A DNA stretch of 50,395 nucleotides, taken from Phycisphaerales bacterium (GTDB lineage: Bacteria; Planctomycetota; Phycisphaerae; Phycisphaerales; SM1A02). A program made the translations under genes and the position numbers. This document shows, piece after piece, positions 7,984-15,127 of the stretch (position 1 is the first letter of the stretch; each line of letters opens with the position of its first letter). The DNA is taken from assembly GCA_028823105.1 (NCBI GenBank), contig JAPKCC010000010.1:1-50395 (forward strand). The letters are read 5' to 3'. The notes below the pieces were generated by a model. It did no database searches, had not been told where the DNA came from, and saw only the letters and a list, made by a program, of their open reading frames with translations.

Positions 7984-8361
7984 TCAGTCGTTCATCTGGT
8001 CGTACGCCGCTGCATCCATCAGGCCTTCGAGCGGACTGGTATCCGCGGTCTTGATGCGGACCAGCCATCCCTCGCCAAAGGGGTCGCTGTTTACCAGCGA
8101 GGGATCGTCCACCACGGCGGCGTTGGCCTCGGCAACTTCACCCGCGACGGCGGTGTACACGTCGCTGGTGGTCTTCACGGATTCCACTTCACCCGCCGAG
8201 TCGCCGGCCGCAAGCGTCTTACCGGCGGTCTTCATCTCGACGTACGTGATGTCGGTGAGGGCATCCGTGGCGTGCGTCGTGATTCCGATCGTGACCAGAT
8301 CACCCTCGACGAGGAACCATTCGTGGGATTCGGAGTAACGTCGATCGGCGGGGCTGGACAT
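7984..8361 (-). CDS. gcvH: Glycine cleavage system H protein
   Basis: GcvH is the small lipoylated carrier that shuttles the aminomethyl group between the P, T and L proteins of the glycine cleavage complex in the cytosol. The 125-residue length is normal. The sequence begins MSSPADRRYSESHEWFLVEG and has GITTHATDALTDITYVEM, then the lipoyl motif GEVESVKTTSDVY with the lipoyl-accepting lysine at residue 63, and the conserved end NSDPFGEGWLVRI. No other gcv gene is next to it, so the P and T genes must be elsewhere. I looked for a glycine riboswitch in the upstream 160 bases on the minus strand and did not recognise one. Confidence 0.97.
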   Translation of the reverse strand: MSSPADRRYSESHEWFLVEGDLVTIGITTHATDALTDITYVEMKTAGKTLAAGDSAGEVESVKTTSDVYTAVAGEVAEANAAVVDDPSLVNSDPFGEGWLVRIKTADTSPLEGLMDAAAYDQMND

Positions 8362-8534
8362 GGGGGTGGATCCGGGATCTTGGAATGGATAAAAGCATGG
8401 AACGAGCGGAGCGGAAGCGGTCGAAATCGTTCGTGACCCTTTTCGGCTGACGGCGGATCATACCGATCTCGGGAGGGATGGCGCTTCCACGGGGACGCTC
8501 GAAGAAGGCGGTGCCGAGGGTAGGTACTTACCCC

Positions 8535-8690
8535 ATTCGTCCATCACGACTGGAACAGGCCCTTCCGGTCGGACGAATAGCCGGGTACGGTCCCTGATTG
8601 CCCGGGTTCAGATTCCCGTGGCAACTCTTCCACTTGTATCTTTCTCCCCTCTGGCAAGTGCCGGTCTTCATGGCCGGCACTTGCTTTCTT
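8535..8690 (+). ncRNA. Candidate structured leader or small RNA ending in an intrinsic terminator
   Basis: The plus strand can form a two-part hairpin: 8 perfect pairs (8535-8542 with 8571-8578), a five-base bulge, then six pairs (8548-8553 with 8565-8570) around an 11-base loop. A second small hairpin pairs 8581-8585 with 8601-8605, or alternatively 8603-8606 with 8615-8618, and a third pairs GTGG 8618-8621 with CCAC 8629-8632. The segment ends in a strong terminator. CACTTG at 8631-8636 can pair with CAAGTG at 8655-8660, which is part of the terminator's left arm, so a terminator/antiterminator switch is possible. I do not recognise a known RNA family (6S, SRP, tmRNA, T-box and glycine riboswitch features were looked for). 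The 5' end is unknown. Confidence 0.45.
8654..8690 (+). terminator. Intrinsic terminator hairpin, plus strand
   Basis: An 11-bp perfect stem (GCAAGTGCCGG at 8654-8664 with its complement at 8674-8684) encloses a nine-base loop and is followed by TTTCTT. There is no T-run on the minus-strand side, so it acts on plus-strand transcripts. No plus-strand protein gene lies upstream, so it must end a small RNA or attenuate the operon that begins 150 bp downstream. Confidence 0.75.
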
Positions 8691-8841
8691 GCGGCTTGGA
8701 CCCGGCGTTCTTCGGGAATTCGGATCGCCGTCGCCGACACCCCGATCTCGGCCGCCTTCCCCCTGCCGCCGGTCGGAGAGGGCTGCTTCGCTACACTTCG
8801 AACTCTTCTATGTCCCTGAAGGTCCCTCGGAGGTCCGGTTC

Positions 8842-9675
8842 TTGGCCCAGATGCAACTGCTTGTGACGGTCTCCGCGGCCGCTTTTCGAGGACGGCTGGA
8901 GTCGTCCGAAGACTCGCTCGACCTCGTCGATATGCCCACTCTCGCGGTCAATGAGCTCGGCGTTCGCGGGATTTCGATCCCGGCGTCTCTGCTCTCCGGC
9001 CGTGATTCGTCCGCTCTGGAACGAATTCGGGACGAAGCAGATCGGGCCCGATGCCCGACCCTGCTCCTCTACGAAGAGACACCCTTTGACGTGGGAAGTG
9101 CCGATCCTGACGTCCGGGCTGCGGCGTCTGAGCGAATCGGCCGACTCGCTCGAGCAGCAAGCATGCTTGGCTGCGCGAATCTCGGCATCGCCTGCAGCGG
9201 GGTCGACCAGGGGGATTGTTTCGATCTCGCCGCGGCGACTCTTCGGGAGATCATGAAACGCATCGATCGTCAGGAGGTCAACCTCCTCATCCAGTCGACG
9301 CGGGGAATCACTGAGAAACCGGATCGACTCACCGAGCTCATCAAGAAAATCGGCGGATTTCGTATCGGCTCGCTGCCGGACTTCCGCATCGCCCACGACT
9401 CAGGTGATTTCACTGGCGATCTTCGCCGGTTGGCGCCGTATGCCGGGACCATCATCGCGACGGTCGGCGGTGGCAAGCTCGGAGGGAAGCCGGCGACGGG
9501 GCCCAAGGACAAGTCGCCGTACGACATCGTCGAAGGCCTCAAAGCGGTTCTCGCCGTGGGATATCAACATGCGATATCCCTCAACCATGCGGGTGGGAAG
9601 CACGCCACGAAGGCGATCATCGAAGCTCGTGAACTGCTTGAGAAGGGGCTGGAATCCCACGCGGAGGGCGAATGA
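8842..9675 (+). CDS. TIM-barrel protein, sugar-phosphate isomerase/epimerase-like
   Basis: The product looks like the AP-endonuclease-2/xylose-isomerase-like TIM-barrel superfamily, a cytosolic fold common in planctomycetes. Alternating strand/helix segments include LAVNELGVRGISIPASLL, ARCPTLLLYEE, SMLGCANLGIACSG, EVNLLIQSTRG, FRIGSLPDFRIAH and AVLAVGYQHAISLNHAGG. The usual metal-binding acids of the family are not obvious: the position where Glu-Asn-His is common reads LIQSTRG, so catalysis is uncertain. I chose TTG at 8842 because GGAGG sits eight bases upstream; ATG at 8851 (MQLLVTVSAAAFRGRL) is the alternative. The frame is open further upstream to 8689, but that part is proline/arginine-rich and overlaps the terminator. 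Its stop overlaps the cmk start (ATGA). Confidence 0.72.
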   Translation: MAQMQLLVTVSAAAFRGRLESSEDSLDLVDMPTLAVNELGVRGISIPASLLSGRDSSALERIRDEADRARCPTLLLYEETPFDVGSADPDVRAAASERIGRLARAASMLGCANLGIACSGVDQGDCFDLAAATLREIMKRIDRQEVNLLIQSTRGITEKPDRLTELIKKIGGFRIGSLPDFRIAHDSGDFTGDLRRLAPYAGTIIATVGGGKLGGKPATGPKDKSPYDIVEGLKAVLAVGYQHAISLNHAGGKHATKAIIEARELLEKGLESHAEGE

Positions 9676-12561: not shown

Positions 12562-13713
12562 ATGATCCACATACCCCTGAAGAAGATGTCCATGTCCTTG
12601 CTCGGCCTTGCAATGGCAGGTCTCACCGTCTCTCTCACGGGGGTGGCCAACGCTACCGACAACCGGGTTCCGGTTGTCTACGTCGTGCCGATGAGCGGTC
12701 AGATGGGAACGGATATTCATCCCTCGATTTATGACGAGGTGATCAAGGACGCGTTGAAGGTTCAGCCTGACGTGATCGTCTATCAACTCAAGTCTGCGGA
12801 CATCGACAACAATTTCTATCTCGCCGGAAACGATGATCGTCGCGAGTTCGGAATGGCAAAGATGGGGGAGTATCGAGAGCTCGTCCGGGCGTTGCACCAG
12901 AAGCTCGATGCCCGACAGGTCATGTGGGTCGAGGATTCGGTCGGTTTGGGAAGCCTCCTCGCATTGTCCTGGCCAGAAATGTACATGTCCGAAGGAGCCC
13001 GTCTCTGGGGCCTTGCTCGCGTCTCAATGATGGCCGCAGGTTGGAGTGATCCCGACGTGGCATCGAAGATGCTCAACGCGTGGGTCGGCATGGGCAACGG
13101 GTTCCTCCAGCTCGGTGGTTATGACCTGGAGATCGGTTGGGCGATGATGCGTCCCGAGTACACGCTGAGTGCGAGTTTCAAGGGACGCGAAGTGACCTGG
13201 ACCAACAACACCGGCGGACAGTGGGTCGTCGATTCGAACAAGGAGGGCGTCGCGAACTTCAGTGCGAGTCTTGCCGAAGACATGGGCCTTTCGGAGGGGA
13301 CGGTCGCGAATCTCGACGACCTGATGTTCCTCCTCGGGTATCGCGAGTACGACGAGGTCGAGAGTGGCAAGAAGATGGTGGAGAAGTACGTCGAAGACTG
13401 GCGCCGTACGTTCGATCGATGCAAGTCTTGGTATGCCGATGCACAGCAGAAGCTCGGCTGGGCGAGCGGAGACGACGCGATTCGCTACCTCGGCGCCGCC
13501 AAGACCGACCTTGAAAAGATCCTCCGGGCCTGCAAGCAGTATCCCGCGGTCGCCGCTCGTTGGCAGCAGGACTACGGCACGAGCATCCTCCAGCTTGAAC
13601 TCCAGATCGAAGGCATCAAGGATCAGATCGGCGACATGCGTCGTGGCCGGAACGGTGGCGGACGCAAGGGCGGCAATCCCGGACGTGGCGGCGGCGGCGG
13701 ACGAGGGCTCTGA
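12562..13713 (+). CDS. Exported ClpP/NfeD-like protein, probably catalytically inactive
   Basis: The 383-residue product starts with a signal peptide (hydrophobic core about 10-25, ANA-like cleavage site near residue 31) and a good GGAG site six bases before the ATG. After it, VPVVYVVPMSGQMGTDIHPS and VIKDALKVQPDVIVYQLKSAD match the first strand and helix of ClpP-class/NfeD-type proteases, and WVEDSVGLGSLLAL followed by EMYMSEGA matches the active-site helix and the next strand. The glycine-rich SPGG motif is replaced by KSADID, and the serine position of the active-site helix reads glycine, so it is probably a pseudoprotease. The C-terminus is a Gly/Arg tail (GRNGGGRKGG and onward). The fold call is from pattern similarity only. 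The next gene encodes a related protein with an intact motif. Confidence 0.7.
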   Translation: MIHIPLKKMSMSLLGLAMAGLTVSLTGVANATDNRVPVVYVVPMSGQMGTDIHPSIYDEVIKDALKVQPDVIVYQLKSADIDNNFYLAGNDDRREFGMAKMGEYRELVRALHQKLDARQVMWVEDSVGLGSLLALSWPEMYMSEGARLWGLARVSMMAAGWSDPDVASKMLNAWVGMGNGFLQLGGYDLEIGWAMMRPEYTLSASFKGREVTWTNNTGGQWVVDSNKEGVANFSASLAEDMGLSEGTVANLDDLMFLLGYREYDEVESGKKMVEKYVEDWRRTFDRCKSWYADAQQKLGWASGDDAIRYLGAAKTDLEKILRACKQYPAVAARWQQDYGTSILQLELQIEGIKDQIGDMRRGRNGGGRKGGNPGRGGGGGRGL

Positions 13714-13804: not shown

Positions 13805-15127
13805 ATGCAGATTCGAATCGTCACGATCCTCATGCTCTTCATCGGCCTCCTCGCCGGAGGGAGTGTTGCGACGGCCGAGCAATACGAGTTGACCTTCTCC
13901 AACGGCTCGAGTTGGCGAGGAGATGACGGCGCGATGGTCGATGTCGTGTTCAACGAACAAGGCATTGAGCAGTCGATCACTGGGGTGATCAAGAAGATCG
14001 ATGGACGGCCGGGATTCCAGATCGTGTTCATCCGCGGGCAGATCGCCGGTCGTGAGGCGACCAAGGGGATCTTCGCACCCGACATCGTGAGTATGAAGGC
14101 CACCGGCGGAACGAATGCCTCGACGAAGTCGACCGCCGACGCGACGACTTCAGGTTCCAAGAAATCCGACCCCGGAAAGCCTGGTGGCACCGCATCCAAG
14201 CCGGCCACGACGACCATGGGCGATGACGGGTACCTCAAGTCCTCCAAGCCCGGCGTCTTCTTCATGCCGTGGGAAGGACCGGTCGGCATCGAAGCCCGTC
14301 ACGACGAGATCCAGGCGATCATCGCGGAGGCCGACAAATACGGCCCCGGCCAGATCATCGTGCTCCAGATCAACTCGCCTGGCGGACTGGTGATCGAAGG
14401 CGACAAGATCCACGAGACCCTGAAGGACGTGAAGCAGCGTCATCGTGTCGTGGCGTGGATCAAGGAAGCGATCTCCGCGGCGGCCTTCACGTCGCTTCAC
14501 TGCGACGAGATCTACTTCATGAAAGTCGGTGCCATGGGTTCGGCGGTGATGTTCGCCGGGCAGACCGCCATCTCGGGTGGGGAATTAGAGGCCTGGCTGA
14601 AGAAATTCAGCGAGGTCGCGGACATCGGTGGACGTGATCCGATCATCGCCCGCTGCATGGTCACGCGAACCGCCATGGCAAGTTACGACAAGGACGAGGA
14701 CACCGGCAAGGTGACCATCTATCCGGACATGCAGGGCGAATTCAATCTGTCGGACGACCAGAACGTGCTCACCCTCAACGTCGACAACGCGATGGACTGC
14801 GGCTACGCCGACGGGATCGCGGACACCACGGATGAACTTGCGGTACTGCTGGATCTCCCGGAATGGCACGAAGTGAACGACTCGGGCCGGAAGATTCACG
14901 AACGATGGCAGCGAAACGTCAAGCAGTGCCGAGCGCGTATTCCGCGGCTCCAAGCCGAGCTCCAACGGAACCCGGAGAAAGCCATCACGCTTCTGAAGGA
15001 ACTGCTTGGCTGGTACAACCGGTGCTATCCGGTTCTGGTCTACGAGATGAACCTTCCTCCTGATCCTGATCCGATCCGACGTCAGATCGAGGAACTCCGA
15101 CGGCAGCGTGCGCTCCAACGGAACTGA
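13805..15127 (+). CDS. Exported ClpP/NfeD-like serine protease
   Basis: The 440-residue product has a signal peptide (MQIRIVTILMLFIGLLAGG, cleavage near TAEQ), then a small beta-rich region (about 24-100), a Ser/Thr/Lys-rich linker (about 103-140) and a ClpP-class domain. This domain carries KYGPGQIIVLQINSPGGLV, with INSPGG at 189-194, and WIKEAISAAAFTSLHCDEIY with Ser224 in the position of the NfeD/SppA-type nucleophile, then KVGAMGSAVMF. A Ser/Lys dyad as in NfeD proteases is likely but the lysine is not assigned. The C-terminal 100 residues are helical and charged. No NfeD membrane partner is adjacent. It follows the related inactive-looking protein by 91 bp and is closed by a strong terminator. 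Confidence 0.8.
   Translation: MQIRIVTILMLFIGLLAGGSVATAEQYELTFSNGSSWRGDDGAMVDVVFNEQGIEQSITGVIKKIDGRPGFQIVFIRGQIAGREATKGIFAPDIVSMKATGGTNASTKSTADATTSGSKKSDPGKPGGTASKPATTTMGDDGYLKSSKPGVFFMPWEGPVGIEARHDEIQAIIAEADKYGPGQIIVLQINSPGGLVIEGDKIHETLKDVKQRHRVVAWIKEAISAAAFTSLHCDEIYFMKVGAMGSAVMFAGQTAISGGELEAWLKKFSEVADIGGRDPIIARCMVTRTAMASYDKDEDTGKVTIYPDMQGEFNLSDDQNVLTLNVDNAMDCGYADGIADTTDELAVLLDLPEWHEVNDSGRKIHERWQRNVKQCRARIPRLQAELQRNPEKAITLLKELLGWYNRCYPVLVYEMNLPPDPDPIRRQIEELRRQRALQRN

Follow-up and report, generated by a model that had tools for sequence, protein, structure and literature searches.

A stretch of about 93 nt on the plus strand of the window (8598–8690) is probably a gene for a small RNA, copy A of a family distributed over the class Phycisphaerae, in which a leader is followed by an unpaired C/U-rich seed and an intrinsic terminator, and which we infer to be transcribed and to act in trans through the seed without Hfq. 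The window is the whole 50,395-nt stretch of the Phycisphaerales contig JAPKCC010000010.1 (assembly GCA_028823105.1) analysed here. Most likely, judging from its sequence and that of its relatives, the locus is a stand-alone sRNA gene rather than a regulatory switch preceding an enzyme operon. The sequence comparisons support an independent locus with a constant seed, a compensated stem, sibling copies and changing neighbours. The family is apparently undescribed, although of a known functional kind. The features concerned are as follows.

7984–8361, minus strand: gcvH, divergent neighbour (PF01597, E 5.4e-39)
8586–8591, plus strand: TACGGT, weak -10-like hexamer (best sigma70-like pair at the window, 5/12)
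8598–8690, plus strand: putative sRNA, copy A, of roughly 93 nt; conserved core 8638–8690, 5' end tentatively placed from the position-matched -10-like hexamer
8598–8624, plus strand: 5' hairpin, TTGCC.GGG / CCC..GGCAA, directly upstream part of the locus
8631–8636, plus strand: CACTTG, the alternative pairing partner proposed in the initial annotation; can pair with CAAGTG (8655–8660)
8640–8651, plus strand: seed CTTTCTCCCCTC, complementary to GAGGGGAGAAAG and predicted to be unpaired; does not vary among the 34 aligned loci
8654–8690, plus strand: intrinsic terminator, 11-bp stem and T-tract, read from the sequence; 97% of cells paired over 34 relatives
8842–9675, plus strand: TIM-barrel gene, start uncertain, first in the downstream operon (PF01261, E 8e-10)

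The initial annotation had described a perfect 11-bp plus-strand terminator with no plus-strand gene before it, and both points hold. Its arms, GCAAGTGCCGG (8654–8664) and CCGGCACTTGC (8674–8684), are perfectly complementary over 11 bp, with TTTCTT (8685–8690) directly 3' of the stem; gcvH lies on the minus strand, and the plus-strand ORFs between it and the TIM-barrel gene are mechanical only. The downstream operon, divergent to gcvH, comprises in order the TIM-barrel gene, cmk, plsC and the gene for a CCA-adding enzyme. Folding of 8520–8705 (plus strand) gave a z-score of -4.52, and none of 200 shuffles was equally stable. A mechanical terminator scan of the window reported two other sites and missed 8654–8690, probably, at a guess, since the stem can extend into the T-tract. 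Among the upstream hairpins noted initially, the one at 8598–8624 sits directly upstream in the locus, and the one at about 8536–8577 falls outside the portion common to relatives. In close congeners (L003–L005), the hexamer at the place matching 8586–8591 is TAGATT. Farther along the window, 3' of the CCA-enzyme gene, a 383-aa frame (12562–13713, plus strand) is without a Pfam match, and the next frame (13805–15127) matches NfeD1b/Clp protease.

A DNA search of 101 genomes (the window's own and 100 relatives) yielded matches in 13, the aligned parts in ten relatives falling within 8633–8699. Conserved are the unpaired C/U block CUUUCUCCCCUC (8640–8651), directly 5' of the terminator, and the terminator stem. 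The same block was present in 11 of the 13 loci and absent from L011 and L013; in relatives it reads ATCTTTCTCCCCTCTGG or a near variant and is followed by the terminator. Across 34 aligned loci all 12 seed columns are invariant, and none of the preceding 47 columns is. Part of this invariance follows from the search itself, 23 of the 34 loci having been retrieved with the seed pattern; all eleven loci retrieved by DNA similarity keep the seed too. In the terminator stem, two-sided changes affect 8 of the 13 pairs over the 34 relatives, and covariation is 0.329, whereas shuffles give 0.191 and slid positions no more than 0.133. The compensatory changes that the initial annotation had named as a check lie in the terminator stem; the near-invariant part is the unpaired block, on which it had not remarked. 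The seed is predicted to be unpaired at a mean of 0.70 in copy A, 0.78 in copy B and 0.73 in the other type (both described below). The region matching the 5' hairpin is not conserved in sequence over 38 copy-A loci; its median fold z-score is -1.56, with 66% of loci below -1.

The seed recurs on other stems. A second copy in the window's genome (L074), on another contig, has the same seed and a different terminator stem. The relaxed pattern CTTTCTCCCCTCNG was detected in 123 of the 181 genomes of the window's family, in many of them twice (reversed pattern, 4 matches). All 20 copy-B places fetched have a predicted hairpin behind the seed, often CCGCCCCG...CGGGG. With L074 and L092 added, 11 of 22 copy-B loci lie behind a gene of one related group, identified by Pfam as a glycosyltransferase in one of two tested. 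In these 11 loci (L320–L325, L332 and others) the gene is on the same strand and shortly before copy B, so copy B may derive from a 3' untranslated region. In families f8, f17 and f19 the variant CTTCTTTCCCCTCCGG was found in 16 of the 17 loci displayed (20 fetched). That unrelated stems follow one and the same seed is the best indication that function resides in the seed.

The copy-A search pattern, CTTTCTCCCCTCNGG, occurred once each in 47 of the 181 family genomes (reversed-pattern control, 4 matches), including one chance match (L026) that has neither the gcvH/TIM context nor a terminator; the places read were a subset of these. In the window's family 38 distinct places were read; 37 adjoin gcvH and/or the TIM-barrel gene, and in 36 the element is directed towards the latter. 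In L036 it is inverted and points at gcvH; L037, from the same genus, has the usual orientation. A covariance model (R1) built from these aligned loci, a search already suggested in the initial annotation, retrieved relatives in 279 of 397 class genomes (202 of 275 genera) at E ≤ 0.01 and in 164 at E ≤ 1e-8. Some weaker matches are bare terminators, such as two of the four at E ≤ 0.01 in the window's own genome, which lie behind tRNA genes. At E ≤ 1e-5, R1 matched 24 of 392 genomes of the phylum, seven of them outside the class; six of these seven matches start only at model position 11, 17 or 19, and the seed was absent from the three inspected for it (L093, L094 and L095).

An 18-mer of the core occurs in at least 119 stretches of named genomes. 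Of the 80 matches listed, the 53 with a strong hairpin behind the 18-mer all bear a label of Planctomycetota, Phycisphaerae, Sedimentisphaerales or similar, and no terminator hairpin follows it in the remaining 27, which come from other phyla or are unplaced. Several matches in other phyla (L113, L115, L149, L167, L181 and others) look like the sufC ABC signature on the opposite strand. Given this resemblance to sufC antisense codons, sufC mRNA could by chance be complementary to the whole seed.

A further 74 distinct loci, found mostly outside the window's family, constitute the other type. In 28 of them a SEC-C motif is encoded on the opposite strand within 300 nt downstream, in 5 it lies farther away, and in 41 none is present in the stretch. 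The 28 loci run towards the 3' end of secA (one such gene was verified as SecA by Pfam), and further loci adjoin unrelated genes. Since the neighbours differ outside the window's family, and since the window's genome has a second copy with another terminator, we regard the element as an independent sRNA family.

Promoter motifs divide these loci. Within 110 nt, 58 of the 74 other-type loci contain TAAAGT-N13..17-GCCGATAA at 11 or more of 14 positions (dinucleotide shuffles, 4.1%), and 34 score 13 or 14 of 14; the spacer of the sRNA sites is 14–15 nt. Sites of 13–14/14 with a spacer of 14 or 15 occurred only once in 676 kb of other class DNA, both strands counted. The motif resembles the FliA consensus of E. 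coli, its spacer being longer by one or two bases. At the same threshold (≥11/14) it was present in none of the 48 loci with the window's seed type, window included. Several of these have a sigma70-like pair, for example TTGGCA-N17-TATTAT in L030. Over all 122 loci, such pairs at 9 or more of 12 positions are found in 25% versus 12% in shuffles, a modest signal, and the window's own score marks a poor promoter. No clear promoter was found at copy B or at the f8/f17/f19 variant. Where the sigma28-type promoter occurs, which is in part of the class, synthesis of the sRNA would depend on a FliA-type sigma factor; the promoter in the window's family would be of a different type.

Flagellin genes in the class typically have TTAAGT-N13-TCGATAA-like sites (flagellin loci among L258–L285). 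With spacers of 13–16 allowed, 25 of 33 flagellin starts score at least 11/14, nearly all with spacer 13, a count that has no shuffle control; sites with 14–15 nt spacers were found at only 2 of 30 loci. As the flagellin sites differ from the sRNA sites, the same factor need not serve both. Several flagellated genomes encode two or three FliA-type factors over the cut-off, so, together with the spacer difference, the promoters may be shared out between two factors.

A FliA/WhiG factor above the cut-off was detected in 21 of 22 genomes tested, the exception being G035. In 20 stretches around FliA, the 11 flagellin-bearing genomes all have flhG, six have flhF and five flhA. No flhA, flhF or flhG lies beside the FliA factor in G354, G344, G517, G455, G382, G048 and G024 (L334–L336, L343, L344, L352, L353). 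Flagellin was searched for in these seven genomes and not found. G290 retains flhG; in G045, where flagellin was not found, flhA- and flhF-like genes persist. In flagellin-less genomes the FliA-type factor may serve a non-motility regulon. Four of them (G354, G344, G382 and G455) have the sRNA with a 13-of-14 sigma28 motif. The retention of this motif in flagellin-less genomes links the RNA to a sigma28-type factor in part of the class and not strictly to flagella. Both flagellin (3 matches) and a FliA factor were found in the window's genome, whose sRNA copies are nevertheless without the sigma28 motif.

In the window's family, flagellin occurs in 39 of the 47 genomes with the copy-A pattern versus 40 of the 134 without it (p 2e-10). 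At class level it occurs in 146 of the 164 genomes with R1 matches at E ≤ 1e-8 versus 165 of the 233 others (p 1e-5, relatedness ignored). The relaxed seed also occurs in genera without flagellin matches (e.g. g42, g19 and g18), so the association is not strict and is confounded by ancestry; a strict tie of the RNA to flagella was rejected. We tentatively propose, as a conjecture that may well not hold, that this Hfq-free, class-wide sRNA family is partly in the regulon of a FliA-type sigma factor retained after the loss of flagella, that this regulon is no longer about motility, and that the siblings share their seed and differ in their terminators.

The C-rich seed, predicted to be unpaired, is complementary to GAGGGGAGAAAG, which is an extended ribosome-binding site. 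RNA transcribed from the locus would act in trans and independently of Hfq, its seed pairing with the purine-rich, GGAGGGGAGAAA-like ribosome-binding sites of mRNAs and thereby lowering translation or altering mRNA stability. Hfq (PF17209) was detected in none of 41 genomes, the window's own included, while the same search was positive in 5 of 14 control genomes; an Hfq-dependent sRNA was rejected on this count. Of 8 congeneric genomes, 7 contained a strict target pattern, GAGGGGAGA-N0..14-ATG, at 34 places in total, 30 of which were fetched; the reversed control gave 0 and is not relied upon. Six of the 34 are sRNA copies read antisense. No convincing common gene start emerged among these places, and three sites recur in two genomes each, inside longer frames. 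Near fliA (319 mechanical ORFs in 20 stretches) the search returned only scattered long matches, of which a single one repeated, for the same gene in two congeneric genomes, and flagellin starts showed ordinary Shine-Dalgarno complementarity and nothing consistent.

That these limited searches found no mRNA target, and that short constant unpaired blocks can be protein sites, would suit a decoy or sponge RNA whose C/U block binds a protein without pairing to mRNA. We consider this unlikely, though it is the best of the alternatives: the block is complementary to an extended Shine-Dalgarno sequence, where the C-rich blocks of known sRNAs pair according to the relevant passages of PMC8216469, and GGA, a possible CsrA-type site, stands at the stem base of copy A and is absent in copy B.

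The initial annotation had offered both a small RNA, which the comparison with relatives supports, and an attenuator or metabolite-sensing leader of the TIM-cmk-plsC-CCA operon. A cis-acting attenuator or riboswitch fits the prevailing orientation towards the TIM-barrel gene (36 of 38 places) and the presence of a terminator and of CACTTG in the window, yet we now find it improbable. Pairing of CACTTG with the left arm is possible in the window but is kept only at chance level in relatives: over 38 copy-A loci the longest match between linker and left arm averages 4.3 nt versus 4.2 in shuffles, and a match of 6 nt occurs in 4 loci (the window among them) versus 7% of shuffles. A conserved anti-terminator pairing is thus lacking, as is a fixed position in cis, the element being inverted in L036 and having other neighbours elsewhere, often in convergence with secA. 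The same seed also precedes a different stem on another contig (L074), and there was no Rfam riboswitch match.

Housekeeping RNAs, of which the initial annotation had named 6S and SRP as possible matches, were rejected along with tmRNA and RNase P, as none matched at the Rfam gathering level. At this threshold the window and 14 loci of several types yielded no sRNA family; the sole matches were tRNAs, one in the window and one in L291. A mere conserved terminator, e.g. a two-way one, without a functional RNA is very improbable: its mechanics would be those observed, and the element lies within 300 nt of a convergent secA 3' end in 28 of the 74 other-type loci, but in the window's family it stands between divergent genes, with no gene upstream whose transcript it could end, in other families it is preceded by promoters, and the block persists even where the stem behind it is entirely different.

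The preferred reading, a trans-acting sRNA, would add to a short record. Few regulatory sRNAs of planctomycetes have been described, and a literature search for this RNA gave no description among the matches listed. For the PVC group as a whole, the relevant part of a review counts 8 distinct annotated sRNAs (PMC9029176). The best weak Rfam match is SorX (RF02784), which has a CUCCC stretch before its terminator; its 19.4 bits (E 0.038) fall short of the gathering score, 46.6. If the reading is correct, a class-wide seed, sibling genes with unrelated terminators and the lack of Hfq would make a clean system for Hfq-independent base-pairing regulation. A sigma28-promoted RNA in flagellin-less genomes would likewise make the role of that sigma factor directly testable.

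Sigma28-dependent sRNAs of E. coli such as MotR and FliX depend on Hfq, which was not found in the 41 genomes here. As in part of this family, MotR and FliX are under sigma28 control, and they differ in being UTR-derived, as stated in the pertinent section of PMC10578931. RoxS and FsrA of B. subtilis, and RsaE, share with this RNA an unpaired C-rich stretch suited to Shine-Dalgarno pairing and a terminator, and RoxS pairs extensively with the Shine-Dalgarno sequence of ppnKB, in the passages concerned of PMC8216469. They belong to another phylum, the stretches tried here gave no gathering-level Rfam match, and we claim no membership. In Campylobacter jejuni, according to excerpts of PMC11187230, FlmR/CJnc170 is FliA-dependent and has a paralogue, CJnc10. 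In the same excerpts FlmE/CJnc230 is processed from the RpoN-dependent flgE mRNA and has the motif CCUU, in both of which it differs from the RNA described here. FlmE/CJnc230 nevertheless consists of two stem-loops around a 12-nt single-stranded stretch, a putative anti-Shine-Dalgarno sequence (PMC11187230), a layout close to that of this RNA; the likeness is one of description and not of compared sequence, and implies no membership. The simplest account of the family would be base pairing in trans at the starts of genes, as with RoxS and FlmE.
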